This document shows, one piece after another, positions 1 through 26,720 of a DNA stretch of 26,732 nucleotides. The stretch covers positions 1 to 26,732 of the forward strand of contig JAYKIL010000010.1 in the NCBI GenBank assembly GCA_035284745.1, given 5' to 3'. The DNA is from JAYKJB01 sp035284745 [NCBI: Candidatus Sericytochromatia bacterium] (GTDB lineage Bacteria; Cyanobacteriota; Sericytochromatia; S15B-MN24). Below the pieces are notes generated by a model. The model did not search any database and was not told where the DNA came from. It was given only the letters and a program-made list of their open reading frames with translations. The translations under genes were made by a program, and so were the position numbers. Each line of letters starts with the position of its first letter. Position 1 is the stretch's first letter.

Positions 1-3000
1 CAACGAGGTGTTCCTGCGCCGGTGCCACTGCAGGGGCAGCGGCAGGCGCCGACGGCGCGGACACAACTGGAGCAGCCGAGGCCACCACCACCGCCGGTTC
101 GGGTCTGGGGGCGGACACCGTCGGAGAAACCCCGGAAGCCGGCGATGGGGGCGTTGGCGGGCTGATGGTGGCGGGGGCCGCGGGCGCCGAGGCCACGGCG
201 GGGGGATGGTATGACGGCGCCGAGGGGGGAACCGGGGGCGCCCCGTGTGCCTGGGGAATCGTGGTCGCAGTCCAAGCCGCTGGGTCCAGCGCAGGGGGCA
301 CCCCAAAGCCCGCCGGCGCAGCAGGGAGAACCCCACCCATCGCTTGGAAGGAGGCTTCCAGCGAGCGCATGTAGGCTATCTGGGTATGCACGAGCGATGC
401 TTCCATCGTTCGTAGATACGCCTGATGGCTTTGTGCCATCGCTTGTTGGTACATGGCAAAGGCTGCCAATGTCGGGTCGGAAGACGAAGCATTCTGCGTC
501 ATCGGTTGGCTCACAGCGAGGGTAACCTCAACAGGGGTCACCGGGAGGGAAACAGCGGGCGTGAGAGAGGGCGCCTCGGGCGCACGCTCACGCTCTGGAT
601 TCGGCGGGGGAAGGGCCTCCGTTCCTCCTGCGGGAGGATACGGTTTGCCATAATTTGTACCCGTGATGGGAAGCGCAAAGGCAGGATGTTTCTTTTCGCG
701 AGGGTCTTCAGGCACGGCAAAGCCATCCCACAGCGGCAAGAGGTCGAGCGAGACACCGGCCACTGCCAACTGGCCGGCCGCCTGCCAAAAAGTCTGCAAA
801 CCGTCCTGGCCCTTGCGATCCGTCGCAACGGCACGATGCGGGCGTCCTTTCAAAATTTCGCTGACCAGACCTGTCAACACCGAGCCAGGCCCCACTTCTA
901 AGAACACCCGGACACCGGACGCGTACATGGCCTCAATCATTTCCACAAAACGGACCGAGGAGGCAATCTGGGAGGACAACAGCGCGCGTTGGGCCGCGGG
1001 ATCCGCCACCGGGTAGGGAGCCGCCTCCGCATTACTCATCACGGGAAGCGAACCCGCCCTGAATTCGATGGAGGCCAAAAATTCCGCAAACGGCTTGCTC
1101 GAGCCCGCCACCACCGGCGAGTGAAAAGCCGTCGCCACCGGCAAACGGCGAGCGGTCACCCCCACCGACTTCAACTGGGCCTCCGCTTGCGCAACAGCAT
1201 CCGTCGGCCCCGAAATCACCACCTGCCGCGGGCCATTGTCATTCGCCAAAACGACTGGCAACCCCCAGGCGTCAAGATGCTTTCGCAACTCTGCAGCGGG
1301 CAGAGAAACAACCGACATCGCCCCCGGAGCGCCTCCTTCAGCGGCTGCCTTGGCCATCAGTTCGCCGCGCCGACGGGCCACTCGCAACGCAGCGCGTTCG
1401 TCCAAGATGCCCGCCGCAGACAAGGCGGTGACCTCACCGAACGAATGCCCTCCCACGCTGGCCGGGCGAATACCGGTCGCACGCAGAAGCGCCAGCGTTG
1501 CAAGGCTGGCTGCACCCAAGGCCGGTTGCGCCCATTCCGTTGCCGTTAAACGCTGCTGTTGGGCCGCGCGGGCCTCGTCATCGAAAACTGGGATAGGAAA
1601 ATTTACTTCGTGCAAGCGCTCGGAAGGCTGCCCCGTCAAAGGATCATTCAAGTCAAGATTCGCCGCCTGGTCCCAGACCTGCCTTGCTCGTTCGAACCCC
1701 ATCGCCAGTGCGGACCCCATGCCCACATACTGGCTCCCTTGCCCCGGAAAAAGAAAAGCGACTGAGCCATCTGTTGGCCCGTGGGCGTAATAAGTCCCAT
1801 GAGGGGTTGAAAAAGCAGTCTCCGGGTTGGCTGAAATGGCTGCGATCGCGTGCTGTAGCTTCGCGCGAAGATCTGACTCGTCTGAGGCCACGACCGCCAA
1901 GCGGGAAAGTTTGGAAGCATCAAAATTCGCCTGCGAGCGGTGTGCCAAGAAACGCAAAAGACCTTGGGGCAACGGCTCATCACCGGCCAGCGGCAAAGAT
2001 TTTTCAATCGTTGCGATCAACGCCTCAGGGGTGCCGGCCGAAAATAGCACCAACTCAGTGGCGAAGGTACGCAACCGTGGTGCGCGCTCACCTGTTCCCC
2101 GATATTCCTCGAAAGTCACGTGGAAGTTACTGCCGCCAAACCCGAAGGAACTGACGGACGCCCGACGGGGATGCTCTTTGCCGCGAATCCAAGGCCGCGC
2201 CTGTGTATTCAGGTAGAATGCCGTCGAAGGCAAGTCAAGCTTCGGATTCGGACGGTCTACCTTGATTGTCGGAGGGAGCACCCGATGGTGCAGCGCCAAG
2301 ACAGTTTTAAACAGACTGGCTGCGCCAGCCGTCGCCTTGGTGTGGCCGATCTGACTCTTCACGGAGCCCAGGGCGCACCATTGGCGATCTGCGCGTCCCG
2401 TCTCGTCAAACACCATCCGCAGGCCGCCGAACTCAGCAGCGTCCCCCGCTTTGGTTCCCGTTCCGTGGGCCTCTACGAGTTCGACCGTCTCGGCACCATA
2501 GCCCGCGCTATCGTAGGCCCGACGAAGGGCTTTGGCCTGGCCCTCCGACAGAGGGGCGTAAACACTGAGCGCCCGCCCATCCGAAGAACTCCCCAGCCCC
2601 CGCAAAACCGCGTAAATCCGATCGCCATCGCGTTCAGCGTCATCCAAGCGCTTGAGCGCCATCATCGCCAAGCCTTCGCCCAAAATCGTGCCATCCGCTT
2701 GGTCTGAGAATGGGCGACAATCTCCTGTCGGCGAGAGCGCTGGCGTTTTCGAGAAACACATGTACATCGAGATGTCATTGAAGGTGTCCACCCCGCCCGT
2801 GATGACCATGTCTGAGTGGCCCAAGACCAATTCATTGATGCCCATCGCCAGCGCCGACAGCGAACTTGCACACGCGGCGTCGGTCACGCAGTTGGTTCCA
2901 CCCAGATCGAACCGATTGGCGATACGCCCCGCCACGACATTTCCCAAAAGACCGGGGAATGAGCTCTCCTGCCACGGTACATACGAGTCAGCGATCTTCT

Positions 3001-3523
3001 CGGCGATGCTCTGCACCTCGCTCTCGGGCAAACCCGCCTCTCTCATCGCCTTCACCCAGATGGGGCGTTGCAAACGCGAGGCCATCTCAATGAATAATTC
3101 CTGCCCAGAGGTTACCCCCAAAATAACGCTACAACGCTCCTTGTCGAGGTTGGCGAACTGTCCCCGGGTGGCATCATCCAGTACTTGTTTGGCAACAATC
3201 AGTGCCAGCAACTGGGACGTGTCGGTGGCCGGCACAATGCTCGGGGGAATGCCGAACTCAACAGGGTCAAAGGCCACCGGAGATAGGAATCCACCCCGCT
3301 TGGAGTAGGTTTTATCCTTGGCCTTCGGGTCTGGGTCATAGTAGTCCTCAATCAGCCAATGGCTTTCCGGCACGTCCGTAATCAAGTCCCGACCACCCAG
3401 GATGTCACGCCAAAACCCCTGAGCATCGGACGAGCCAGGAAAAAGTGCGCTCACGCCAACGACGGCGATCGGGGGCATTTGGGTGGAAGACCGGGACATC
3501 TCGGGGTTCCTCGAGGCAACCAT
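1..3523 (-). CDS. pfaA: PfaA-like type I polyketide/PUFA synthase (KS-AT...), 3' end outside window
   Basis: This multidomain synthase subunit builds acyl chains by decarboxylative Claisen condensation on carrier proteins. About 1174 codons are visible; the frame is open from the ATG at 3523 to the left edge. Residues ~17-455 form a ketosynthase with active-site Cys218 (DAACASS), His353 (HGTGT) and His394 (IGHTKATAG). The segment LPPTIKVDRPNPKLD and the ending FGFGGSNFHVTFEE are typical of PfaA-type synthases. Residues ~590-890 form a malonyl-type acyltransferase with FPGQGSQ and Ser694 in GHSFGE. Then come a helical linker and a long Pro/Ala-rich stretch; in this family tandem ACPs and a KR normally follow, and these would lie outside the window. 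The start is 1 nt after the pfaD stop, so the two genes are almost certainly one operon; ATG at 3499 is an alternative start. A heterocyst-glycolipid-type (HglE) synthase is a less likely alternative. I am confident of the family; the product is unknown. Confidence 0.9.
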   Translation of the reverse strand, partial: MVASRNPEMSRSSTQMPPIAVVGVSALFPGSSDAQGFWRDILGGRDLITDVPESHWLIEDYYDPDPKAKDKTYSKRGGFLSPVAFDPVEFGIPPSIVPATDTSQLLALIVAKQVLDDATRGQFANLDKERCSVILGVTSGQELFIEMASRLQRPIWVKAMREAGLPESEVQSIAEKIADSYVPWQESSFPGLLGNVVAGRIANRFDLGGTNCVTDAACASSLSALAMGINELVLGHSDMVITGGVDTFNDISMYMCFSKTPALSPTGDCRPFSDQADGTILGEGLAMMALKRLDDAERDGDRIYAVLRGLGSSSDGRALSVYAPLSEGQAKALRRAYDSAGYGAETVELVEAHGTGTKAGDAAEFGGLRMVFDETGRADRQWCALGSVKSQIGHTKATAGAASLFKTVLALHHRVLPPTIKVDRPNPKLDLPSTAFYLNTQARPWIRGKEHPRRASVSSFGFGGSNFHVTFEEYRGTGERAPRLRTFATELVLFSAGTPEALIATIEKSLPLAGDEPLPQGLLRFLAHRSQANFDASKLSRLAVVASDESDLRAKLQHAIAAISANPETAFSTPHGTYYAHGPTDGSVAFLFPGQGSQYVGMGSALAMGFERARQVWDQAANLDLNDPLTGQPSERLHEVNFPIPVFDDEARAAQQQRLTATEWAQPALGAASLATLALLRATGIRPASVGGHSFGEVTALSAAGILDERAALRVARRRGELMAKAAAEGGAPGAMSVVSLPAAELRKHLDAWGLPVVLANDNGPRQVVISGPTDAVAQAEAQLKSVGVTARRLPVATAFHSPVVAGSSKPFAEFLASIEFRAGSLPVMSNAEAAPYPVADPAAQRALLSSQIASSVRFVEMIEAMYASGVRVFLEVGPGSVLTGLVSEILKGRPHRAVATDRKGQDGLQTFWQAAGQLAVAGVSLDLLPLWDGFAVPEDPREKKHPAFALPITGTNYGKPYPPAGGTEALPPPNPERERAPEAPSLTPAVSLPVTPVEVTLAVSQPMTQNASSSDPTLAAFAMYQQAMAQSHQAYLRTMEASLVHTQIAYMRSLEASFQAMGGVLPAAPAGFGVPPALDPAAWTATTIPQAHGAPPVPPSAPSYHPPAVASAPAAPATISPPTPPSPASGVSPTVSAPRPEPAVVVASAAPVVSAPSAPAAAPAVAPAQEHLV

Positions 3524-3524
3524 A

Positions 3525-5159
3525 CTAAATGGTTAGGGGGCGGGGACGAAAATCAAAGGCGTTGGGTGGGATGGGCGCCCCATAACAACGCAGCTGTTGA
3601 GCGCGCGTGGCGACTGCAGCACCTTCCAGGAGATTCAAGCCCATTTGCACAACACCTCGTTGCGCCGGGTCTTCCAGGAATGTTCCTTTGGCCCACGCAT
3701 TGAAAGCTCCCATCGCAGGGCCACACCATATTTGATAATCCATACGACGTTCCGGGATTCCGGCAATCGCCCACCGGCTCGATTGCCCCAAGTACCAACG
3801 AAACACCAGCGCCATACGATGCTTGGGGTCACGTTCTGCACGCGCCAGTTGGAGCGGGTCGCGCATCGTAAAGTATCGCATACACTCATCCCACACCGCT
3901 TCAACCGATTGCTGCAAGATGTCCTTCTCAAGTTTGCTTCGCACATCAGCAGGCAAGCTTTCCAGCGAATCATAGCCTGAATAAAGGTCATACAAGCGCT
4001 GTGCCCGTGAAGCGAACATCGTGCCTTTTTTCAACACCTGCACCTTCACTCCGAGTTCAAACATATCCCCGGCCGGACACATCACCACATCGGCCATGTC
4101 TGCCAACGCCAGCATCTTCCGCGCGGCCTCAGACTGACCGGCCTCCCGAGCGCTTTGGTTAATTGATCCAGTCATGACATAGGCGGCCCCGTAAGCGAAC
4201 GCCGCGGCCACAGCGGCCGGCGTACCAAGGCCGCCCGCCGCGCCCACCCGGATGGGGCGCTTGTAACCATACTCTCGCGCCAGTTGGTCCGCCAGCGTTC
4301 GGATGGTGGGAAACAGAGACCCCAAGGGACGATTATCAGTGTGCCCCCCTGAATCTGACTCGGCGGTAATGTCTTCAGCCACCGGCAACCGTGCGGCGAG
4401 GGCTGCCTCTTCGGGAGTCAATCCACCCCGCTCAACCAAGGTTTGGAGCATCGCGGCAGGTGGCGGGGATATAAAAGCGCGCGCCGTCTCGGGGCGAGAG
4501 ATCTTGGCAAACACGTGATGGGGTCGCACCAGGTGCCCCTCAGCATTGAGGTGAACGCCCTTGAAGGCATAGCGAACGATGGCAGGCGTGAGGCCCATAA
4601 ACGCCGAGGCTGATACCCGGCTGACGCCGTGGGCAAGAAAGATATCAACCGTTCGCTCTTCCAGGGCCGGTTCGTGCAACGAGTGAATGAGGTTGGCTCC
4701 CCACGGCCGTGATCCCGGCTCCGCCTCGGTACCCAACTTTTCCGCCAGAATCTTGACCGATTCCTCGATTCGCACGGGCGACAAACCTGCCGCCCCGAAA
4801 AATCCCAGCATGCCTGCCTCAGCGAGGGCAATGACCATCTCCACCGACGCGATACCATTCGCCATCTCGCCCCCGATGTATGGGAAGCGAACGCGATGCG
4901 TTTCGTTGAAACCGCGATCGCCCAGCCATTCAGGCCACAAAGGGGGCAAGGCACCCAAGAGGATCCACTCCGTCGGCCCTTCAACCCACTCAACGTGTCC
5001 TCCAAAGCCAACCGCTACCCGCCCTGTCTCTGCGTGCTTGAGCACGTGGGCACTCTCACGAAAACGCGTGCAGGCTTGCGATAACTCGCCGGGTTCTAGA
5101 TGTATCGGGTCGGGTCCAGGCAGCCAAGCCGCCGCCGTCGAAGGAGCAGAAGTGATCAT
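3525..5159 (-). CDS. pfaD: PfaD-family enoyl reductase of PUFA/polyketide synthases
   Basis: This 544-aa protein is a flavin-dependent (FMN) trans-acting enoyl reductase. In this family it reduces the 2,3-enoyl-thioester on the ACPs of a PfaA-type synthase, using NAD(P)H. The call rests on an N-terminal domain followed by a 2-nitropropane-dioxygenase-like TIM barrel. Hallmarks are GFFGAAGLSP near residue 120, GGHTDNRPLG near 270 and GGLGTPAAVAAAFAYGAAYV near 305-325 (the FMN-phosphate loop), followed by MTGSINQSAREAG and the C-terminal KVQVLKKGTMFASRAQRLYDLY segment. The length matches the family. It is the first gene of the operon, with its stop 1 nt before the pfaA-like start. This ER-first order resembles myxobacterial pfa1-pfa2 rather than marine pfaABCD. 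The ATG at 5159 is the first in-frame start after an upstream stop; no clear Shine-Dalgarno is seen. Confidence 0.92.
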   Translation of the reverse strand: MITSAPSTAAAWLPGPDPIHLEPGELSQACTRFRESAHVLKHAETGRVAVGFGGHVEWVEGPTEWILLGALPPLWPEWLGDRGFNETHRVRFPYIGGEMANGIASVEMVIALAEAGMLGFFGAAGLSPVRIEESVKILAEKLGTEAEPGSRPWGANLIHSLHEPALEERTVDIFLAHGVSRVSASAFMGLTPAIVRYAFKGVHLNAEGHLVRPHHVFAKISRPETARAFISPPPAAMLQTLVERGGLTPEEAALAARLPVAEDITAESDSGGHTDNRPLGSLFPTIRTLADQLAREYGYKRPIRVGAAGGLGTPAAVAAAFAYGAAYVMTGSINQSAREAGQSEAARKMLALADMADVVMCPAGDMFELGVKVQVLKKGTMFASRAQRLYDLYSGYDSLESLPADVRSKLEKDILQQSVEAVWDECMRYFTMRDPLQLARAERDPKHRMALVFRWYLGQSSRWAIAGIPERRMDYQIWCGPAMGAFNAWAKGTFLEDPAQRGVVQMGLNLLEGAAVATRAQQLRCYGAPIPPNAFDFRPRPLTI

Positions 5160-14263: not shown

Positions 14264-14337
14264 GGGCGTATAGCTCAGTTGGTTAGAGCGCCACGTTGAC
14301 ATCGTGGAGGTCACTGGTTCGAGTCCAGTTATGCCCA
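14264..14337 (+). tRNA. tRNA-Val (anticodon GAC)
   Basis: This is a full cloverleaf of 74 nt. Acceptor GGGCGTA pairs with TATGCCC (one G-U), and the D arm is GCTC...GAGC. The anticodon stem is CCACG/CGTGG with loop TTGACAT (anticodon GAC). The T arm is ACTGG-TTCGAGT-CCAGT and the discriminator base is A. The 3' CCA is not encoded (the next bases are CCT), so it must be added. The gene stands alone, on the strand opposite the neighbouring protein genes, and its 3' end is 16 nt from the convergent kinase-like gene. Confidence 0.97.
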
Positions 14338-14353
14338 CCTCAATGCAGAGCGC

Positions 14354-15895: not shown

Positions 15896-17011
15896 TCATC
15901 GCAACAGGTCTTGCGGAAGCGACAAAGGCTCGTCCGGGCGCTTCGGGTCACGCACCCCCGGTAACCGGGCAATGGTGATCAGGTTGTCTGGAGCGCTCAA
16001 AGCGGACAAAAAGGCGACCAACGCATCCCGTTCCTCGCCCGTTAAGCCAAGGGGGACCAGGTTCCTGTCTAAATTCGAATTGGGGAAGCCCCCCTGGTCA
16101 TAAAATGCCACCACCGCCTCGAGAGTGGGCAGCGTTCCATTATGCATATAGGGGGCCGTTAAGGCGACATTCCGCAATGTGGGGGTCTTAAATCGTCCTT
16201 TGTCACCGGGGTTGCCGGTCACCAAGAATCGACCGGAGTCGGGAGAAGCATCTCGTGCGCCGACCCCTGTGTTGTGAAACAAGCGATCCGTCAGGTCGGG
16301 ACCGCTGTGACACGAAAAGCAGCGCCCCCGAGACGAGTTAAACAGCCGGTTGCCGAGTTGCTGCTGTTCGGTCAGTGCCGCCGAATCACCGCGCAAAAAC
16401 CTCTCGTACGGCGATAGTTCCGTTTGCAACGCGCGCTCAAACGACGCCAAGGCCCGCGCGATGCCCTCGGGAGTGACAGTTTCACCGAAGGCCTCTTTGA
16501 ATTTTTTGGGATAATAAGGATGAGAATTCAGCCTTCTTACCACGTCATCCAGCTTTGCATCCATCTCGAGCGGATCGGTCACCGGCCCCAGCGCTTGTGC
16601 TTCTAGACTCTCTGCCCGGCCATCCCAGAATTGTTGACTCGACCCCGCTGCCGCATAGATGGTCGGCACACTGCGACGACCTCGACGGCCGTGTATTCCC
16701 TCTGCATTGCGCTGACCATTGGAAAATCCACGATTATGTTGATGACAGGTGCCACAGGTCATCCGGCCATTGCCCGATAATCGCGGCTCGAACCACAAGC
16801 GAAATCCCAGTTCCACCTTGGCCTGAGTGACGGGATTATCAGCCGGTGCAGGTATTTCGCGCCAAACAAGCGTAGCCGCGCGGACACCACGAGGTTGTGC
16901 CCCAGATAGAGTCGCTCCCGGCGCAAGGGTTTGACACGCAAAAAGCCCCGTGCCAAGCAACGGGAGAGCGAAAAAACCCACGGAGACTAACCGTTGAAAT
17001 GAAAAACCCAT
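15896..17011 (-). CDS. Di-heme cytochrome c peroxidase/MauG-family lipoprotein
   Basis: This 371-aa exported electron-transfer enzyme of the bacterial cytochrome c peroxidase/MauG superfamily reduces H2O2 or carries out related two-electron oxidations. There are two heme c sites, CGTCH from Cys86 and CFSCH from Cys231. The segment FKTPTLRNVALTAPYMHNG is characteristic of the family's C-terminal domain. The N-terminus has a hydrophobic signal ending GLFAC, which looks like a lipobox, so it is probably membrane-anchored in the periplasm. ATG 17011 is chosen over TTG 17014; no strong Shine-Dalgarno is seen. It follows the coiled-coil gene by 21 nt and may share its mRNA, although no functional link is evident. 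MauG-type and CcpA-type cannot be separated here. Confidence 0.92.
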   Translation of the reverse strand: MGFSFQRLVSVGFFALPLLGTGLFACQTLAPGATLSGAQPRGVRAATLVWREIPAPADNPVTQAKVELGFRLWFEPRLSGNGRMTCGTCHQHNRGFSNGQRNAEGIHGRRGRRSVPTIYAAAGSSQQFWDGRAESLEAQALGPVTDPLEMDAKLDDVVRRLNSHPYYPKKFKEAFGETVTPEGIARALASFERALQTELSPYERFLRGDSAALTEQQQLGNRLFNSSRGRCFSCHSGPDLTDRLFHNTGVGARDASPDSGRFLVTGNPGDKGRFKTPTLRNVALTAPYMHNGTLPTLEAVVAFYDQGGFPNSNLDRNLVPLGLTGEERDALVAFLSALSAPDNLITIARLPGVRDPKRPDEPLSLPQDLLR

Positions 17012-17032
17012 CAAGGAAGTTATCCCAGAAAC

Positions 17033-18904
17033 CTACAAAGACTTGCGAGCGGGTTCGGCAATTTCAAGCCCCACCGCTATTCGCATCTTCTCAGCCAACA
17101 AGGCATCGAATCGTTCGAACACGGGCAACCAGTCGGTTCGATTCTCTGGCGCCCAATCGATCTCATCCAGAGCCAGACGGTGCAAAACATTTTCGACAAC
17201 CGTCGCTTCCAAGACTAAAGAAGCCAACAAGGGGGCCACAACATCCAGCCAAGCACACGGCTCCATCCGCGCCCCCAAAGAGGGCCATTCCACAACACCG
17301 GGTTTCCAGGCAACCAAGGCGGCCTCTGGGTGGGCCTGCAACAAACGTGTCATCTCCTCGTCTGTCTCTGGATCGGCCACCGGCAACTCGAGCCAACGCA
17401 GCAGCAAAAAGGCCTCTTCCGGGCCATTCTCGAGCAAACGGGGCAAGCCTTGGACCCATTCGGGCGACCACCAAGCGCCGACACACAGGCCATCTTGGAC
17501 CAGGCCGACGGCCACAGGGGGGGAATCATCGGGATCGAGAGGACAGCGCCAGCGGAAGAGGTCCTCTTCACCGGCCAAGGCCCACAATCTCTCCACATCA
17601 CCATTTCGACGCCATACCATGACGTCGTGGCGATCCCGATCAAAGCGCAGAGGGGCCGACAAATGAATAGAGGTCAAAGTGCCAGGAGTGGTCGCAAACT
17701 CAATCCGATTGACGTGACCCTTGGCGTGAGGAACCTCGCCCTCGCCGCGCACCCGCACCAGCGACGCACGAGTCAACTTCAGAGCGGACTGGGTTCGGGC
17801 CATCTCGGCCTGAAGTGTTTCACCCAGATGCTGCAACGCGCGGATATCCCCCTCCACCTTTTCAAAAGTTTGGCGCACCGCCCGTTGGATCGAATGAAGA
17901 ACATGGAGACCCTTTTTCAGGGCTTGGGTCTCGGTCGTCAATGAAGCCGTGCTCTGGGCCCACTGAGTCATCTGGGCGTGAAGGGAGTTAAACGCTCGCA
18001 TGAGTGGCTGCTGTTCAGTCCGCAGCGTTTCCAGCCCGGTGAGCAGCGATTGAACATGTTGTCGTAAGTCCTGGTTTTCCGCTTGCAACGCCGCGATCTG
18101 CGACTGACTCGTGGTCTGTTCCCCCTCCACCAGGCCGCCCAACTCCGCATAGAGAGCCTTCAATCGCGCCATTTCGCGCGCCATTGAATCCTGCGCTTCG
18201 AAGCGTAAATCCGCGGCGTGAGTCTGCGCTTCCAGCGCGCTACGCAATGCAGCCACTTCGTCTCGCAGGGCATCCCCCTCCGCACGAGACAACGCACCTA
18301 CGTGAGCATCCGCAGGCCCCATCGGCAAGCGCGTTTCCGTCTGCGGGGACACCGGTAGTTCACGCGGAGGGGGGGGCGGTTCCACCCACTCAATCGGAGG
18401 CGAAGGTGGCTCTGTCCACTGAACCGGGGGGGGCGCGTCATCGGCAGCCACGGAAAGGGGCGAGTCGGAAGAAAGGAAGTCAACGAACGCCGGGGAGTTG
18501 CTCTCCGACGCAGGCGATAGCTGTTGCAGGGGAATGGGCTCTGGAACCGGGCCTTCCGATTCAGCGTTGGCGATAGGATTAAAAAAGTCGAATTCTGGGG
18601 CCCCTGGCGCCGGGAGAGGGGATGCCCCTGCGTCCAGAAAGGAGGGAGATTCAAATTCCTCCGGCCCCGCAAAAGCCAAAAACGGGTTTTCCGGACCGGG
18701 TTCGGGTGCGCCAAAAACGCCGAACGGGGACGCTGCGACATCGCCGCCATCAGCCCCAAGGGCCGGGTGATGGTCCAAGGAGGTCTGTTTTTCTGCCGCG
18801 GGCAGAAAAAAACCGGGATCGTCTTCAAGCACAAACTCTTCGAACGAGGTATCCATCTCAAAAGTCATTCCGGCAACGGCCCAATCTGGTGTCAGCCTGA
18901 ACAT
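17033..18904 (-). CDS. Coiled-coil protein of unknown function, disordered acidic N-terminus
   Basis: This protein of about 623 aa is not recognised. The first ~200 residues are acidic and rich in Pro, Phe and Glu/Asp (many FE/FF/PEF clusters, then PPPPV/PPPPP stretches), and so are probably disordered. A long coiled coil follows at about 205-400 (repeats of ALRSAL, ALQAENQDLRQHVQSLL, ALKKGLHVL). The C-terminal ~220 residues form a compact Trp-rich domain (VMVWRRNGDVERLWALAG; VGAWWSPEWVQGLPRLL). There is no signal peptide or membrane span, so it is cytoplasmic. ATG 18904 is chosen; GTG 18940 would overlap one of the possible starts of the divergent large gene. It lies head to head with the pseudo-SNF2/HTH gene, which suggests joint regulation and perhaps a shared complex. 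That is only an inference. Confidence 0.75.
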   Translation of the reverse strand: MFRLTPDWAVAGMTFEMDTSFEEFVLEDDPGFFLPAAEKQTSLDHHPALGADGGDVAASPFGVFGAPEPGPENPFLAFAGPEEFESPSFLDAGASPLPAPGAPEFDFFNPIANAESEGPVPEPIPLQQLSPASESNSPAFVDFLSSDSPLSVAADDAPPPVQWTEPPSPPIEWVEPPPPPRELPVSPQTETRLPMGPADAHVGALSRAEGDALRDEVAALRSALEAQTHAADLRFEAQDSMAREMARLKALYAELGGLVEGEQTTSQSQIAALQAENQDLRQHVQSLLTGLETLRTEQQPLMRAFNSLHAQMTQWAQSTASLTTETQALKKGLHVLHSIQRAVRQTFEKVEGDIRALQHLGETLQAEMARTQSALKLTRASLVRVRGEGEVPHAKGHVNRIEFATTPGTLTSIHLSAPLRFDRDRHDVMVWRRNGDVERLWALAGEEDLFRWRCPLDPDDSPPVAVGLVQDGLCVGAWWSPEWVQGLPRLLENGPEEAFLLLRWLELPVADPETDEEMTRLLQAHPEAALVAWKPGVVEWPSLGARMEPCAWLDVVAPLLASLVLEATVVENVLHRLALDEIDWAPENRTDWLPVFERFDALLAEKMRIAVGLEIAEPARKSL

Positions 18905-18958
18905 CAGGCTATCATAGGGGTCCTTGAGAGTCGATAACACCTCAAGCGGAAAATTTGC

Positions 18959-18974
18959 GGAGGCGCTCAGGTTG
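18959..18974 (+). promoter_or_regulatory. Ribosome-binding site that decides the start of the large HTH protein
   Basis: GGAGG (18959-18963) lies 8 nt upstream of TTG 18972. Other in-frame choices are TTG 18924, which would overlap the divergent gene, and GTG 19014, with no site at good spacing. The N-terminal domain begins after residue 15, so all three starts keep it. Confidence 0.5.
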
Positions 18975-21900
18975 TGTAGCTGGAGCAGCGAGGATGTCTA
19001 CTCGGGCGAAAATGTGCTTCATACGGGGCAGCTCGTACGAGCGCTCCACGGGGATCGTGGCATTGGTCGTGTCGACAGTGCTTCCTCGACTCACGCAGAC
19101 GTTTCATACTTTTTAGGGGTCGGCCGCGATATCATCTGCAACCACGCCCTGCGTTTTCTCGTGCGGGTGCGACTCATCCCCGGCACCTTATGCTTCACAC
19201 CGTCGGAACCCGGGAAGCCTTTGACGGTGGGTTGGGTGCGTCGATGCTTGGGCGACAGCTATGAACTAGCGCTTCCAGATGGCGCACTTTTGACGGTGCC
19301 CGAGGCCCACATCCGTATTTACGCCCAGCACGCGGAGGCTGACCCGGTCACGTTACTGCAATGCCTGGGCCATGGCAATCCGCTGGCAGCCGACCGCCGC
19401 CGCAACCTCGTGGCGGCTATGACGCAATGGCGAGCGAGCAGCCGCGGCCTGACGGGCTGGCTCTCATCCCGTCTGCCCCTCTCAGCGCAGGGTTTCAGCC
19501 TGATCGCCCGTGCCCTCACTCAGAACAAGCTGCGATGTGTTCTGGCGGACCCTGATTCTCAGGCCCGCGACAGTGCCCTGGTGGGACTGGTACGTCAACT
19601 TTTTGCCGAGCAACCCCGTGCACGCTGCCTTGTGATTGCAGCGGGTGAGCGGCACGGTTGGTGGGAGCATCAGCTTGCAGACCACATCCGACACAGCCCC
19701 ATTCGTCGGCTGATGACGCTCACACCGGATGAAACTGAGATATGCGAGTCGCCGCAGGCTCCCCACATGATGGTGATCGAGGGCGCGGCGCCATTGGTGG
19801 AAGGCGCTTGGCTGGCCGGCGCGCAACGCCGTCGATTTGATAAGCTGCGCGCGCTCTCGCAGCAATGCGAGCATCTTATCTTGTTGGCTGATACACCGGT
19901 TCAAGGCCCTCTCGACATACAGTTCGCTCTGCTGCACCTGATTGATCCCCACGAATACCCGTTGGAAAAAAAAGCGGATTGGCTCGCTTCGCGGGACCCA
20001 GACGAGGCCATTGGGCGACCTGGCGAAAGACTTATCAGCGATCGGGCTTCTTGTCTGCGAGCGAGACGTCTTGTTTTTCCTGTCGAACCGACATTTCTAC
20101 AGCCTCTGGAAAGCCCCCACCAAGCCGTGTGCGAAATATTGGGCCACTGGAGGGAGACGGCCTACCAAGCTTCGGAAAATGACGAGGAGTCTCAAGAAAA
20201 GTACGCGGCCATTTGGACGGCTTTTCACAATGCGTGGGGCGCATCGCCCGAAGCCCTCAAAGAGGTTGTAAGCCTGCGGCACCGTGTCGTCGGCCCCCTG
20301 ATTGAAATACCCGGCCCCGCGAATCTGACGATTCCGCGAAACGATTTTCAGGCACTCACCGAGACACCCTTGTTCGCCGGAGAATTACAGCATTTGGAAG
20401 CGCTGAGTTCCGAACTGGCCTTGGGACGCGAGCCCCACCCTACGCAAGGAGAAGCTGCCGCTCAAATCGTTTCCGCCACAGCCAAGGGAAAGGTGCTGGC
20501 TGTGACGATGTATGGTCGTTTGGCCCACGAGTTGTTCCAGCGATGCGCGGCAGACTTGGGTGCGGACACGATTGCCCTGGTGACAACAGAAGCAAGCGAG
20601 GCCGAGCGCACACGGGAAATCGACAGGTTCAATCACGATGCCTCATGTCTCGTTTTGATGGCTGACGAGGCATTGTTCGACGGGGATCGCAAGGTGCGGG
20701 CCGACGTGGTGGTTCACGTGGATACGCCCTGGCAATTTTCTACGTGGGCCAAACGACTTCAGAGATTGGACGCTGAAGATCCGGCCGCTGCAGAGCACGT
20801 CATCCGCGTGCCAGACATCAGCCACTCGGGCGATCCAGGGCTTTGGCAAGCCGCTTTGAAAGAGGCCTTCTGGTCTGACGAGCCACGGAGCCTCCACGCG
20901 ATGGGTGTCTGGCGATCGCTCGATACGACCCACGGACTGAACGCATTTTTAAGGGGCCCCAAGGCGCCTTCCACCATTCAGGACGATCTCCAACGCGCGC
21001 AATCGACCCTTCAAAAACTTCAAGACGCGGAAGAACAACGGGATCCCGCCGTGAAGCTCACCTCGCGTGATTACGCGGACTTCCAAGCCCTCGCAAAACA
21101 AGACGCCGCCTGTGTGGTTTGGCAGGCGGCGCTTGAGGGCTGGATGTACGACGTGCTGCGCTTGCCTCTTCCTTCTCCCGGTCATCCCAGCGAACGCACC
21201 GAAGATATCCCGTCAGGTCTTTGGAAACGGCTCGGCCCCCTGCTCACCACCGAACACGAATTTAGCCGCGTCGATGCACTCAGAAACCCGCACAAAGCGT
21301 TTCTCCGCCCCGGGACGCCCTTGGTGGACACCATTCTCTCCACGCTGTCGTGGAATGCACGCGGCCAATGCGCCGCCGTGTGGCGAGAAGCGAAGGATTG
21401 GCCGACAGGCGCTGGAAGCACCTGGACAGGCCTGCGCCTGGACTGGGTGATTGAGGCGGATGAAACACAATGGCACGACCTGACGGCGATTACACAGGAC
21501 GAAGCGCCCAGTGCAGCCTGTGTGAAGCGCCAGGCGGATGCGCTGTGCCCCCCCCGACATCTCACGCAATTTATTGATTTGGCGGGACAGGAGGTGACCG
21601 ACCCGCAGACCCTCAGCGTGTTAAACCTCCCTTACTCCGAGGTCCCAGGCGGGCACCGAGACTGGCCATTGGTCCGAGAACTGCTTCCGGTTTTGCAAAC
21701 ACACGTCCCGGGAGAAATATTGCAAGAAGGCCTCTCCGCCGCCGTGGCCCAAGCGCAAGAAAAATTGCGCACGCAAACTGCGGTGATGGAATTTTTTGTG
21801 CGGCAAGAGGGCGACAGCGCTGCTCACCCCGCGGGGGCGAGCCCCCTCCCCAGCAAGCGGGCCGATGAAGCGCCGACAGAGTCTCACGCTGCCTTGCATT

Positions 21901-23330
21901 CGGCCATTCGAGCACCCCGGGTGCGCCTGGACACCCTCACCTTGTTCATTATTTCGGGAGAGGCCCCTCCCGATTCAGAGCATCACAAACAACGCAGGGG
22001 GCCGCGGCACGCCCACCCGATGCGGTTAGAATTTCCCGCCTCGGAGGGGGCGATCGATTTGCCCTCCGCCCGGGAGGCGCGGGGCCTCACCGCGCGGGAA
22101 CTGGCCACCTTGGCCTCTGTACCGACTGAACGTCTGAATGCGTTAGAAACCCGCGGAGTCTCATTGGACGTCGATGCGATGCGACGGGTCAGCGCGACCC
22201 TTGAGGCGCTACCCGAGTTAAATGCAGTCGACACGCGGGGGCCCGCCATCGCTGCGCGGCGGGAACAGCGAGGACAAACGCTCGCAGAGGGGGCCTGCGA
22301 ACTGGGCATCACCCCTGAGGCATTGGCTCGCATCGAAGCGGAAGGGGCACCTCCAGAAATGGCCCGGCGATTGGCCCGGGCGCTGCACTTCTCGACCGAC
22401 CAACTGGCCTCACTGGCACCCTTCCTGGGGCGTCGACTCACCAGCTTGCGCAGAGCGGCAGCGCTCAGCCAGGCGCAAGTGGCGGAACGACTGGAGGTAC
22501 CCACCGGCGTTGTGGCGGCTCTGGAGCTGGGTCGCGTCACACCCTCCGACGCGCTGTTGGCAAAGCTGCGGGCCTTGCTGCCAATCCCCGAAGCGATGAA
22601 AGGGGAGCTGGTGCGCTTGCGCCCGCGCGCACTCGACCTGGGTGATCCGGATGCTGATTTGAATCCCCCAATGCCCGCCGCCGCCTTCGATACCCATGCG
22701 ACAGAAGCCGAGGCTTCCGGCGCACCACCACCCCGCTCTGATGATCCCGCGACGGTGGCCACGCCAACGCGTGAGGCAGACTTGCCCCTGCGCAGCCTGC
22801 GCCAGCGCAAGGGCCTCTCGCAAAAGGAACTGGCCGATATGCTGGGCATGTCGACCGCTTTGCTCTCGTTTTGCGAACGGGGCACCAAGCAACTTCCTGC
22901 CGAGAAGGCCCGCACCGCTGCCTGCATCCTGGCCGCCTTAGCGGACGTGCCCAGCAGCGAATTTGTCGGGCCACGCCTGCGTGAAAAAATGGAACGCCAA
23001 GGGTGGGATGCACCTCAGCTTGCACAGCAGTCGGGAGTGAGCCTGTCGACCATCCAGGCATCACTGGAAATCGGCTTTGACAACGCAGCCCGAGAAGACG
23101 TCCGGCGTCTGTTCAACGCCTTGGGCAACCGACGGGCTTTGTGGACAAGGACCGAGATAGGTTGGCACGGTCCGAGCGATGAGGATCTCGAAGCGTTGGG
23201 CGTTCCTGCCCCGCTTTTCGCTGCTTTGCGTGCGGGCACCATGATTCCAGATGAGTCTCTATATGTACGCCTGCTGGCCGTCAACGCATCGGCCGGTTCC
23301 CCGATCACCAGCGCAGACAGACAACCATGA
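18972..23330 (+). CDS. Degenerate SNF2/RapA-like helicase fused to an array of about six Xre-type HTH domains
   Basis: This 1452-aa protein appears to combine two things. Residues ~19-110 resemble the Tudor-like N-terminus of RapA (GQLVRALHGDRGIGRV). Residues ~170-620 follow a SNF2 helicase by eye, with key motifs replaced: LADEVGLGKT is LADPDSQARD (191-200), DEAH is IEGA (269-272), LLTATP is LLADTP (304-309), and QRIGRLDRIGQ is KRLQRLDAEDP (594-604). FLRPGTPLVD (777-786) opens a RapA-like C-terminal region. From ~1030 to ~1445 there are helix-turn-helix units at about 1030, 1090, 1153, 1271, 1333 and a weak one at 1395. The best is RQRKGLSQKELADMLGMSTA. An acidic Pro/Ala linker separates units 3 and 4. 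It probably binds DNA without ATPase activity, in a structural or regulatory role. The gene is intact and long, which argues against decay. Confidence 0.75.
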   Translation: MCSWSSEDVYSGENVLHTGQLVRALHGDRGIGRVDSASSTHADVSYFLGVGRDIICNHALRFLVRVRLIPGTLCFTPSEPGKPLTVGWVRRCLGDSYELALPDGALLTVPEAHIRIYAQHAEADPVTLLQCLGHGNPLAADRRRNLVAAMTQWRASSRGLTGWLSSRLPLSAQGFSLIARALTQNKLRCVLADPDSQARDSALVGLVRQLFAEQPRARCLVIAAGERHGWWEHQLADHIRHSPIRRLMTLTPDETEICESPQAPHMMVIEGAAPLVEGAWLAGAQRRRFDKLRALSQQCEHLILLADTPVQGPLDIQFALLHLIDPHEYPLEKKADWLASRDPDEAIGRPGERLISDRASCLRARRLVFPVEPTFLQPLESPHQAVCEILGHWRETAYQASENDEESQEKYAAIWTAFHNAWGASPEALKEVVSLRHRVVGPLIEIPGPANLTIPRNDFQALTETPLFAGELQHLEALSSELALGREPHPTQGEAAAQIVSATAKGKVLAVTMYGRLAHELFQRCAADLGADTIALVTTEASEAERTREIDRFNHDASCLVLMADEALFDGDRKVRADVVVHVDTPWQFSTWAKRLQRLDAEDPAAAEHVIRVPDISHSGDPGLWQAALKEAFWSDEPRSLHAMGVWRSLDTTHGLNAFLRGPKAPSTIQDDLQRAQSTLQKLQDAEEQRDPAVKLTSRDYADFQALAKQDAACVVWQAALEGWMYDVLRLPLPSPGHPSERTEDIPSGLWKRLGPLLTTEHEFSRVDALRNPHKAFLRPGTPLVDTILSTLSWNARGQCAAVWREAKDWPTGAGSTWTGLRLDWVIEADETQWHDLTAITQDEAPSAACVKRQADALCPPRHLTQFIDLAGQEVTDPQTLSVLNLPYSEVPGGHRDWPLVRELLPVLQTHVPGEILQEGLSAAVAQAQEKLRTQTAVMEFFVRQEGDSAAHPAGASPLPSKRADEAPTESHAALHSAIRAPRVRLDTLTLFIISGEAPPDSEHHKQRRGPRHAHPMRLEFPASEGAIDLPSAREARGLTARELATLASVPTERLNALETRGVSLDVDAMRRVSATLEALPELNAVDTRGPAIAARREQRGQTLAEGACELGITPEALARIEAEGAPPEMARRLARALHFSTDQLASLAPFLGRRLTSLRRAAALSQAQVAERLEVPTGVVAALELGRVTPSDALLAKLRALLPIPEAMKGELVRLRPRALDLGDPDADLNPPMPAAAFDTHATEAEASGAPPPRSDDPATVATPTREADLPLRSLRQRKGLSQKELADMLGMSTALLSFCERGTKQLPAEKARTAACILAALADVPSSEFVGPRLREKMERQGWDAPQLAQQSGVSLSTIQASLEIGFDNAAREDVRRLFNALGNRRALWTRTEIGWHGPSDEDLEALGVPAPLFAALRAGTMIPDESLYVRLLAVNASAGSPITSADRQP

Positions 23331-23400
23331 CTTGCTGTTTCATACGGAACAAGCAGGGGCAAACAGAAATTACACCCAAAAGTTTTCTATGGAGGTTTGG

Positions 23401-24111
23401 ATGTTCAATAAAACCATCGCGCTGGTTGTCTCCGCATTGCTCTCGGGAATGGCTGTCGCTACCCCCGTCCTGACTGCGGAACCTGCACTCGCGCGGTCTG
23501 GCAAAGCCCTCAGTTCCCACGAAAACCTGGACGTCGATCTGGGCATCTCCGAACTGCCCTCCAACGTCGAGGCCTTTCTCGCCTTGCGCGAACGCCTCGC
23601 CAAAACTCCGGAAGGAGCTGTGGCGGTCTTTCTGGTCGCCTTGAACGTCTACGGTGAAAATCGGGACCTTGGCAAAACCTTTCTCACGATCGCTGTGGAT
23701 GCGCGGCACGTGAAAGACAGCGAGGAGCCAGGCTCGTACAAGGGAAAAATCATCAACAAAAATCGCACCAGGGAATTCAACCGGGTGCTGGAGAATTCCC
23801 CCAACACCGCCCGGGCCTACTGGAAAGGCGCGGGGCCAGACAATGGCTACAAAGCAGACAAGCCTTTTGCCGCGAAAATTTACAAGGTAAAGGGCACCGA
23901 GGCCCGGGCAGACAAATACGCGGAGGCCACCACGGGGCGTGCGGTGGAAGAACTCAAGCTCTTCGTCATGTCCGAAGGGTACCGCAACGCCAGCGGCGGT
24001 GGACGCCCCATCTCAGTGGCGAAAAATGCTGCAGGCGTATGGAAGGTCACCCGCTTCAGCGGAGTCGTAGCGGCCGTGATGAAGACCCCAGGCCCCACAG
24101 ACGACTTATAG
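23401..24111 (+). CDS. Secreted protein of unknown function
   Basis: This 236-aa protein begins at ATG 23401 with GGAGG at 23391-23395, 5 nt upstream. The frame stays open to 23251, but that stretch overlaps the preceding gene and has no ribosome-binding site. The first ~32 residues are a signal peptide (KTIALVVSALLSGMAVATPV, cleavage probably after ALA). The mature part has SNVEAFLALRERLAKTPEGAV, a helical Ala/Leu segment, YWKGAGPDNGYKADKPF and ELKLFVMSEG, ending in a Trp-Lys-Val-Thr strand. This resembles an exported family I recall as DUF6935, a name I could not check. No catalytic residues are evident. It follows the large HTH gene by 70 nt and may be read from its own promoter. Confidence 0.82.
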   Translation: MFNKTIALVVSALLSGMAVATPVLTAEPALARSGKALSSHENLDVDLGISELPSNVEAFLALRERLAKTPEGAVAVFLVALNVYGENRDLGKTFLTIAVDARHVKDSEEPGSYKGKIINKNRTREFNRVLENSPNTARAYWKGAGPDNGYKADKPFAAKIYKVKGTEARADKYAEATTGRAVEELKLFVMSEGYRNASGGGRPISVAKNAAGVWKVTRFSGVVAAVMKTPGPTDDL

Positions 24112-24221: not shown

Positions 24222-26720
24222 TTAATAGACAGCCGTCAGGGTCGTTTCCCCTTGGAGTTCACCCTTGCGAACGATGACGCGCAACTGGTGTTCGCGCGGC
24301 GGTTGTCCCGTCGCCTCCGCGGACACGTACGAGATGAACTCTAATTTGATCGAGTTCCCCAATATCTTCGCGACCGGTAAAGTGGTCAAGTCCATCTCAG
24401 AGCCAATGAGCAACGGTGTCCACGTCCCCCCCGTGCCTTCACTGGCTCCATCCCGAGAACTGGCTTCCGCCAGTGGCTGTGCGAGCCCACGCGCGGAACC
24501 CGAATTAGCGCCCAGACCTTTGATATCCGGCGCTACCACGTGTACCACCGCATTGTCTGCCCGCAAACGCTCCGCCAACTTCGGAACAGTCCAAGTCGAG
24601 GCCGGGCTGATCTCCGCCCCCCCTTGCTCCCACACCGGAGCATCGGTCATGGCGACGTAGACCCGTTGTGCGCCAGCGCGCCACCCGAAAGTGGCCTCCG
24701 AGGCACCGGACTTACTGGCGCCCTTGCCATTGTTGTGCGCCCACCAGATCGAATCGAGCATGCCTTCAGGAATATCCATTCCGCCGTTCGGCGTTAGCAG
24801 ACTCAGGAAATTAGTCACCCGATTGGCACGGAGGGTGCGTTCACCCGAGGGAGGCTTCACAAGGCCGTCATCATCCGCAAAGGGCGTTAGGTATTCAAAA
24901 CCCCAGACAGTCAGGGCACCCGGGTCGTTGGCCGGAATCAAACCAGCAGGATTCCCCTCCAAACCATCGGAGTAGGCCACCGCCCCAACCTGCGCATCGA
25001 TGTTTCGCGCGTACAGACTCTCCACGAATTTCAGGGCACTCTTCTTCACGCCCTGCAACGCACTGCCCATTGATCCGGTGACGTCAATAATGAATGCCAC
25101 ATCCACCGGCAACGAACGCCCCGATTTTTCAGCTTCGGTGAATTTAGCGGCCTTCACCTTGCCGTCTTCCACCACCGTGACCTCACCACTGTCCAATTCG
25201 ACAGGGTTACCATCAGGCCCCACCAAACCTGACAAGGTCACGACGACACGCGCAGGGCGCTCATCGTCACTGTAGGTGATGGTGGGATTCAAAGCCCCCG
25301 AAGCAGGAGCCGGCGTTTCGACCGCCGGATCCTCGCCCACTTCGGTGTAGATGTCGCTGTTGGGTCCGATGATGTCATCCGGGCTCACCACCCCAATACC
25401 GGGTTCGCTGGGCAACGCCTCGTCGTTCAACGGCTTGTTAGCAGGCAACACCTGGGGCGGCAGGTTCAGAACGAAGTTCGCCTTGTTGTCGACCACCACC
25501 GGCACGATCACCGGCTTAAAACCACCGGCCGAAATCGTCAGATTATATTCGCCCGGCAATATCCGATCCAACGTAAATTTACCAGCGGCATCTCCGAACT
25601 GCTGATCTGTCACAGGGGGATCAAGCTGCGCCACGGCTCCGTCTACCGGATTTCCGGCTTCATCTTTGACTTGACCGGAAACTTTCCCAAAGAAAGCGAC
25701 CGTGGAGGCCAATCGGGTGACGCCCAGATCTTGAGGGGCTCCAGCGGCCACCGTGATGCTGCGACGCGGGGGCAACTTGTAGAACGCTCGATACACCTGC
25801 ACGGAGTATTCTCCGGGCGGGAGGTTCAGCATCTCGTAACGGCCCTCGTCATTGGTGATGGCCGTGAAATTGTCCAGGCCCACATCATCGGCACCCAACG
25901 CCGCACGATCTTTGGGATAGAAAGACACCGTCGCCCCCAGAATGGCGCTTCCATCACTGGTCTGCACAGACCCTGTCACGCCCGCACGCGGGGCCGTTTC
26001 ACGTTCCAGCACGACCGGTGCATCAAGCATCGCAGGACGCCCTGCCTTGACCACGACCCCTTTCACCACTTGCCGCTTGTAACCCGGCGTACTGACCACG
26101 ACGTTCCAAGTGCCCTCCGCCACGTTGGTCAGAGCGAAACGACCCGTTTTGCCGGCCTTCCCGACGACAGAGGTACCCCCGGATAGGAACACATCGACGC
26201 CTTCAGGGTCTTCGCCTTCTTTGGCGTCCTTCAATTCGATCAGGCCTTGAATGGAGCCCGTGCGGCGGGTAACCAAACTCACAGCATCAACAATGGGCGG
26301 CTCCTCGGCGACAGGAATCGAAATAGGTGTGGGTGAGACCACCTTGGTCACGCCGCCCTTACCATCCGGAACGGCGGCTTCCAAGGTGTAGTCTGCGCCC
26401 TCCGGAACCACCAAAGCGAAGGATCCATCAGGCCCAATGGGGCCCTCTACCGTGGCGCCATCGCCGCGAGCGGCGACAGAGCCCCCGGAAGCCGGCGCTT
26501 GTTTGAGGGAGTAATTGCGTCCTCCGGCAGAAATCAAACCGCCTCCTGCTTGATCGACGCTCACCGTGCCGCGGATCATTCCCGACCCCTTCGGCACGGC
26601 AACGTTCGCCGCGGCCGCCGTGGTATTCCCGCCGGTCTGAGAGGGGGCGCCCCCCTGACAGGCTGCCACCGACAGCGCGAGGGTCAACAAAAGAGAGCGG
26701 CGCAAATTCTTGAAGCGCAA
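24222..26720 (-). CDS. Lipoprotein with carboxypeptidase-regulatory-like repeats and a von Willebrand factor A domain
   Basis: This 832-aa surface lipoprotein has a signal peptide ending LSVAAC (lipidated Cys21). At least four regulatory-like beta modules start near residues 46, 153, 246 and 345 (patterns such as GxVxxxDGxxxxGAxV, then DxxGxYxxxxLPPGEYxVxV). From about 535 to 760 there is a vWA domain with a MIDAS start DVTGSM at 546-551 and a later TDAPVW strand. This means metal-dependent protein binding, by analogy with vWA adhesins. TTG 26720 is the start: GGAGG sits 6 nt upstream at the extreme right edge, so the coding region is complete. It resembles the three lipoproteins at 7222-11370 in its modules and so belongs to the same surface set. 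Confidence 0.9.
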   Translation of the reverse strand: MRFKNLRRSLLLTLALSVAACQGGAPSQTGGNTTAAAANVAVPKGSGMIRGTVSVDQAGGGLISAGGRNYSLKQAPASGGSVAARGDGATVEGPIGPDGSFALVVPEGADYTLEAAVPDGKGGVTKVVSPTPISIPVAEEPPIVDAVSLVTRRTGSIQGLIELKDAKEGEDPEGVDVFLSGGTSVVGKAGKTGRFALTNVAEGTWNVVVSTPGYKRQVVKGVVVKAGRPAMLDAPVVLERETAPRAGVTGSVQTSDGSAILGATVSFYPKDRAALGADDVGLDNFTAITNDEGRYEMLNLPPGEYSVQVYRAFYKLPPRRSITVAAGAPQDLGVTRLASTVAFFGKVSGQVKDEAGNPVDGAVAQLDPPVTDQQFGDAAGKFTLDRILPGEYNLTISAGGFKPVIVPVVVDNKANFVLNLPPQVLPANKPLNDEALPSEPGIGVVSPDDIIGPNSDIYTEVGEDPAVETPAPASGALNPTITYSDDERPARVVVTLSGLVGPDGNPVELDSGEVTVVEDGKVKAAKFTEAEKSGRSLPVDVAFIIDVTGSMGSALQGVKKSALKFVESLYARNIDAQVGAVAYSDGLEGNPAGLIPANDPGALTVWGFEYLTPFADDDGLVKPPSGERTLRANRVTNFLSLLTPNGGMDIPEGMLDSIWWAHNNGKGASKSGASEATFGWRAGAQRVYVAMTDAPVWEQGGAEISPASTWTVPKLAERLRADNAVVHVVAPDIKGLGANSGSARGLAQPLAEASSRDGASEGTGGTWTPLLIGSEMDLTTLPVAKILGNSIKLEFISYVSAEATGQPPREHQLRVIVRKGELQGETTLTAVY

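Follow-up and report, generated by a model that had tools for sequence, protein, structure and literature searches.

A motor-dead DpdE relative fused to a helix-turn-helix array, apparently kept by selection, in a Sericytochromatia genome

What does an SNF2-type protein do once its motor motifs are gone, and is such a protein a working product or a gene in decay? The question is raised by a gene in the 26,732-nucleotide stretch of Candidatus Sericytochromatia DNA analysed here (contig JAYKIL010000010.1; below, the window). The gene (18972..23330, + strand) was assigned from profile matches and codon composition as a fusion of a DpdE-like pseudo-SNF2 protein of 1452 aa with an array of helix-turn-helix (HTH) units. 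The single open frame 18972-23330 given in a preliminary description of this DNA is real: the + strand is stop-free in this frame from 18918 to 23330, and its composition is coding-like. GC contents at the three codon positions were 0.68/0.48/0.64 for residues 1-990 and 0.71/0.54/0.68 for the HTH part, both resembling the neighbouring genes. A start at TTG 18972 is reasonable because a possible ribosome-binding site, GGAGG (18959..18963, + strand, read by eye), lies 8 nt upstream.

The relationship of the first 1000 residues was established with profiles. The NCBIfam DpdE model NF041062 matched the window protein with E 3.1e-90 and 303 bits, and its orthologue in a second genome, G346, with 7e-125 and 418 bits; both scores are below the curated cut-off of 500. 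The PADLOC DpdE profile gave 1.2e-57. On these matches the protein is judged homologous to DpdE though short of the NF041062 cut-off, with residues 1 to ~1000 corresponding to DpdE over its full length; in Dpd (7-deazaguanine-DNA) restriction systems, DpdE is the component of SNF2/RapA type. Tblastn recovered DpdE from 7 plasmid records, ~24% identical, and in 4 of these the alignment covered 80% or more of the query; four cyanobacterial plasmid DpdEs aligned over 91% of the window-protein query, and none of the phage records searched with it gave a match. Single-sequence scans detected no relative of the window protein in genome contigs and, with a cyanobacterial DpdE as query, none in viral contigs. 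Thus the SNF2 kinship of the first half, which had been described as RapA-like, is upheld by the DpdE profile and by tblastn, whereas the closest named family is DpdE and not RapA. The RapA equivalog model, whose cut-off is 576 bits, scored only 15-16, and identity as a RapA orthologue was therefore rejected; a DpdE profile itself matches RapA at ~1e-61. The earlier statement that no described family fits must be withdrawn for these 1000 residues, which sit in the DpdE family neighbourhood (E 3e-90), and derivation from a defence helicase, one of the options proposed there, is supported by the full-length DpdE relationship. Pfam found only Helicase_C in the first half, at E 0.012 and below cut-off.

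Within the DpdE-like body, all on the + strand, a beta-rich N-terminal region (residues 15-165; 19014..19466), Tudor-like by position only and 44% identical in the orthologue, is followed by helicase lobe 1 (residues 166-340; 19467..19991) and helicase lobe 2 (residues 501-640; 20472..20891), both with approximate boundaries, and by the DpdE C-terminal region (residues 641-1000; 20892..21971; profile match), in which the alignment revealed a retained WNARGQCAAVWRE (21351-21389). The DpdE match stops at residue 996, where the C-terminal extension begins. Two RecA-like lobes are implied by the DpdE homology. A structure model of residues 1-999, built from 11 sequences, was of low confidence (mean pLDDT 44), and its top Foldseek match was RapA 6bog (E 3.4e-12, TM 0.20); because intact SNF2 sequences in the alignment steered the model, this match is support and not proof. 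The model of the HTH part was also of low confidence (mean pLDDT 45). RapA, the RNA-polymerase-recycling Swi2/Snf2 ATPase of E. coli, is thus the best fold match of a weak model; RapA is an active ATPase not known to carry an HTH array, and in this the window fusion appears to differ.

None of the SNF2 ATPase motifs I, II and VI is intact. By alignment, and on the + strand, degenerate versions lie at Walker A (CVLADPDSQARDSA, residues 189-202; 19536..19577; Arg199 at the Lys position), the DEAH box (MVIEGAAPLV, residues 267-276; 19770..19799) and motif VI (TWAKRLQRLDAEDP, residues 591-604; 20742..20783), reading SQARD, IEGA and LQRLDAED as first described. The P-loop glycines have gone, with S, Q and A at the G-L-G positions. 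Residues K183, E281 and R599 of RapA are given as catalytic in PMC8501970; counting along the RapA alignment ourselves, we place them at R199, G271 and A601 of the window protein. For a BrxHII/RapA-like helicase, ArmA, loss of defence by Walker A or B mutants is reported in PMC12458937.

Motif conservation was scored in an alignment of 49 proteins, comprising the window protein, its G346 orthologue, 40 genome regions and five plasmid and two viral-contig DpdEs; among the genome regions, L165 and L166 encode more distant SNF2 relatives (outgroups). The Walker A position is present in 47 of the 49, L170 and L173 being truncated there, and G[LV]GKT is kept in 44 of these 47. The exceptions are the window protein (PDSQARD), L136 of G346 (ADWTDRA; Walker A position ADADWTDRAFEA) and L164 of G171 (EDAQARL). 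Compared with DpdE copies beside dpdF, the window protein stands apart: 17 such copies carry DEA[HQ] and QR motifs, and GLGKT is found in all 15 that are complete there. In the G346 orthologue, motif II still has its acidic pair (DEPL) and motif VI its Arg at 601, so Walker A is the sole clean loss in both proteins. The question whether the losses are common to orthologues is thus answered in part: Walker A loss is shared, whereas loss of the acidic pair and of the last motif VI Arg is not. Intact motifs occur only in distant DpdE homologues (21-26% identity); since the syntenic G346 orthologue has also lost Walker A, the loss is not that of one decaying copy. Among 36 motif columns conserved in 15 representatives, 11 are kept by the window protein, 15 by the G346 protein and 17 by L164; for 133 other conserved columns the counts are 75, 78 and 62.

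The C-terminal extension had been described as several Xre-type HTH units, and Pfam recognised five HTH_31 stretches (E 1.2e-28; 99.7 bits against a cut-off of 27, hence above the gathering score). On the + strand these are unit 1 (22059..22211, boundaries by eye), unit 2 (22239..22406), which aligned to nothing in the G346 orthologue, unit 3 (22428..22580), unit 4 (22788..22940), 61% identical in that orthologue, and unit 5 (22968..23123). Unit 3 also matches HTH_25 (E 1e-12), the RodZ-type HTH. No HTH family was found at E 0.001 by Pfam in any of 44 other DpdE relatives, in which Helicase_C was recognised in 43 and SNF2-rel_dom in 40. These 44 were drawn from 50 besides the window and G346 copies; some near duplicates of the L148 type (such as L154 and L171), truncated proteins (L161, L170, L173) and the outgroups L165 and L166 fell outside the scan. 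Among DpdE relatives the array has two known members, window and G346.

The second member came from a search of the phylum to which Nostoc belongs (Cyanobacteriota; L049/G306), 386 genomes in all. Matches were present in 28 of them, and that in G346 was set apart (E 2.4e-113, 33% identity over about residues 1-990, namely 6-990, in an open frame of 1441 aa). The parts of this protein (locus L136) follow one another as in the window protein, the HTH array here giving four HTH_3 stretches, and it is 38% identical over the whole pairwise alignment. G346 is the only one of 18 genomes of its class with the fusion, and also the only one of the 18 with the coiled-coil partner gene described below. 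No HTH-fused member was recognised among the other 27 positives of the 386 genomes, in the phylum of G001 (282 genomes, 8 of them with distant matches) or in its class (71 genomes, overlapping the 282; 2 matches). The 347 genomes of the phylum of G004, a set with no positive control, yielded no match, and viral contigs queried with the window/G346 pair yielded no HTH-fused member. Fusions were called by frame length (others up to 1160 aa) and by Pfam for the 44 proteins; an extra match, G674:C92 in the Nostoc-phylum search, and the weaker L265, L266 and L271 of the G171-class search described below stand outside the comparisons. Searches of open-licence papers turned up none on a DpdE pseudo-ATPase or a DpdE-HTH fusion.

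Neighbourhood is shared by the two fusion genes. In the window, a coiled-coil gene (17033..18940, - strand) diverges from the fusion gene and a VWA/CarboxypepD_reg gene (24222..26720, - strand) lies beyond it; both flank the G346 orthologue in the same way, with 34% and 48% identity, respectively. The C-terminal part of the coiled-coil protein is conserved beside the G346 orthologue, and no Pfam family was found in this part of the window copy. The G346 partner (L136 4864-7872) carries an N-terminal Pkinase domain (E 1.4e-9) which the window copy does not. By eye it reads HLDVAPRSIF at the HRD position and LLGGG at the expected DFG; as DFG is apparently missing, it is probably a pseudokinase. 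Neither an operator-like inverted repeat nor a sigma-70-like site was found between the divergent window genes. A MauG/CCP family gene (15896..17014, - strand) has a 64% identical counterpart near the G346 orthologue, positioned differently from the window, on the VWA side and not on the coiled-coil side. Between the fusion and VWA genes lies a DUF6935 gene (23251-24111), whose product, read by eye, probably has a signal peptide behind an internal start; nothing in the sequence surrounding the G346 orthologue matched it. Elsewhere in the window, positions 2-5159 encode PfaD and a PfaA-like ketosynthase/acyltransferase protein that is truncated at the window edge, as part of a PUFA or polyketide synthase locus. 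PfaD is ~60% identical at most to copies in several phyla, Myxococcota and Acidobacteriota MAGs among them; the orthologue of the fusion, by contrast, belongs to the Nostoc phylum, and PfaD may have moved between lineages. A tRNA-Val (gac) at 14264-14339 is the sole tRNA found in the window.

Constraint along the protein was compared with that in intact relatives. Pairwise identity between the window and G346 proteins was 44% in the N-terminal region, 28% in each lobe, 27% in the inter-lobe insert, 38% in the C-terminal region and 50-61% in HTH units 1, 3, 4 and 5. The ratio of lobe to flank identity was 0.60 on the multiple alignment and ~0.7 on the pairwise alignment; the motif loss itself accounts for some of the lower lobe conservation. 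The control was made up of 21 hand-picked DpdEs with intact Walker A, giving 210 pairs; 149 had a mean identity of 15-50% and were kept, and 61 were dropped. These 149 pairs ranged from 0.99 to 1.70 (median 1.39), and L143, a solo DpdE whose DEAH box and motif VI are eroded, is present in every one of the five pairs with the lowest ratios. In the window/G346 pair constraint is thus reversed: conservation is lowest in and between the lobes and highest in the HTH units.

Walker A has also been lost elsewhere. When 57 genomes of the class of G171 were searched with the G171 protein, 7 gave a match; besides G171, matches extended over most of the length in four (G034, G234, G113 and G100), while two further genomes and a second place in G100 matched over the helicase part only. 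All five proteins of this second lineage (L164, L272, L273, L274 and L275), which belong to one class in another phylum, have lost Walker A. They resemble the window protein in this loss, in the Arg at the Lys position, common to all seven dead proteins of the two lineages, and in relaxed lobes, their ten pairs having lobe/flank ratios of 0.67-0.97. They differ in that Pfam detected no HTH in any of the five, no coiled-coil neighbour was found in the surrounding stretches analysed, one of them only 4.8 kb long, and they lie elsewhere in the tree. In a midpoint-rooted tree the window and G346 proteins group with Walker-A-keeping DpdEs and the five fall outside; long branches make the placement of the dead lineages uncertain. 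A single origin of all seven was rejected at the borderline (AU p 0.040), in a test affected by long branches and by a group picked after the motifs were seen. A quick tree had joined L164 and the window protein at 82%, and the join disappeared once the kin of L164 were added. Two origins are preferred over one, but are not proven; the second lineage is probably independent.

The Dpd context was examined using dpdD-H, dpdJ, dpdK and one small protein as queries (dpdA-C and dpdI lay outside this search), and only dpdE matched in the window. A dpdF query against 30 genomes, picked mostly for a dpdE without dpdF nearby, identified true dpdF (E below 1e-200) in 6; the other 24, G346 among them, had RecQ-like matches and no true dpdF. 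Cyanobacteria commonly have DpdE genes whose 16-kb surroundings show no dpdF, dpdG or dpdH match (L141-L144, L146-L150, L152-L154, L156, L157 and others), and in several of these genes DEAH or motif VI is eroded. Partly eroded motifs (e.g., DQAE, QRLRC, KRISR) occur mainly in dpdE genes without adjoining dpdF; DEAQ and QRHGRMNR are also seen in one copy that is clustered, L140. The DpdE loci L140, L159, L161 and L162 share a QueE-resembling frame (by eye), which suggests 7-deazaguanine synthesis genes in those loci. The dpd-island survey of PMC11888242 required dpdAB, so that solo dpdE genes fall outside it.

Taken together, the motor-dead DpdE derivative with its HTH array is real and apparently kept by selection. 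We consider it somewhat probable that a former DpdE defence motor has become an ATP-independent, HTH-targeted DNA-binding scaffold or regulator. The HTH array would bind DNA sequence-dependently, and the dead SNF2 body may work without ATP, either as a clamp or as a platform on which DNA, RNA polymerase or the coiled-coil partner docks. The coiled-coil partner could oligomerise with the fusion protein or be co-regulated with it, and the whole assembly would then be a static DNA-bound scaffold or transcription regulator and not a translocating motor. That the gene is a decaying pseudogene, as three degenerate motor motifs beside intact distant DpdE homologues might suggest, was rejected as highly improbable: 1452 codons run without a stop, coding composition is intact, and the G346 orthologue is similar in length, architecture and neighbourhood, with conserved HTH units and flanks. 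The second genome with the same design makes a working non-motor protein look likelier than a decayed gene.

Other functions for such a protein were weighed against this scaffold or regulator. A defence sensor, in which the dead SNF2 body and HTH array would recognise invading DNA and signal via the coiled-coil (kinase-like) partner, appears unlikely. Descent from a restriction-system component, as indicated by the DpdE profile, and the kinase-like domain of the G346 partner favour it, as does the precedent of PglZ (BREX) and DndH, whose N-termini, according to PMC12839542, have an inactive, shortened second Swi2/Snf2 lobe followed by HTH-like units, and for which a role of this kind has been put forward there. 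The likeness is limited, PglZ and DndH having the shortened second lobe only, whereas the window protein has the whole two-lobe DpdE body with its flanks and C-terminal Xre-type HTHs. Against a sensor, none of the 17 proteins scanned in the window had a Pfam match to nucleases or methyltransferases, dpdE was alone among the Dpd proteins tried, and no phage record matched; PADLOC, run on 10 neighbours, returned only weak matches, to the JetC coiled-coil (E 7e-5) and the Cas3g HD-domain (E 6.5e-6), which look like shared folds. Some Xre-like HTHs, RodZ (HTH_25) among them, bind protein. HTH units that bind protein and not DNA, with the DpdE body as assembly platform, would accord with the HTH_25 match of unit 3 and with the large coiled-coil partner; as the best scores of the array come from HTH_3/HTH_31, models characteristic of DNA-binding Xre/Cro proteins, such an interaction scaffold is improbable. 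Still less probable is a non-hydrolysing switch whose site binds nucleotide with Arg for Lys. The Arg in all seven dead proteins speaks for it, and Arg replacing the P-loop Lys could permit nucleotide binding still; the P-loop glycines have been lost, however, and little in the window/G346 pair is less conserved than the lobes.

A wider reading of the DNA-binding scaffold or regulator is more speculative and, in our view, doubtful. In it, a component of a restriction system dependent on DNA modification would have been domesticated at least twice into conserved motor-less SNF2 proteins, and here the HTH fusion and the coiled-coil (pseudo)kinase partner would have given rise to very large DNA-bound regulators or nucleoid proteins of a new class, in which the SNF2 clamp is used without ATP. 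Pseudo-enzymes are familiar from kinases, but it is unusual for a bacterial SNF2 protein to be full-length and seemingly kept by selection when its motor has been lost. Solo cyanobacterial DpdE proteins with partly eroded motifs are possible intermediates for tracing the loss of the motor, and the window fusion offers a way to test how an SNF2 body functions in the absence of ATP and how parts of defence systems become host regulators.
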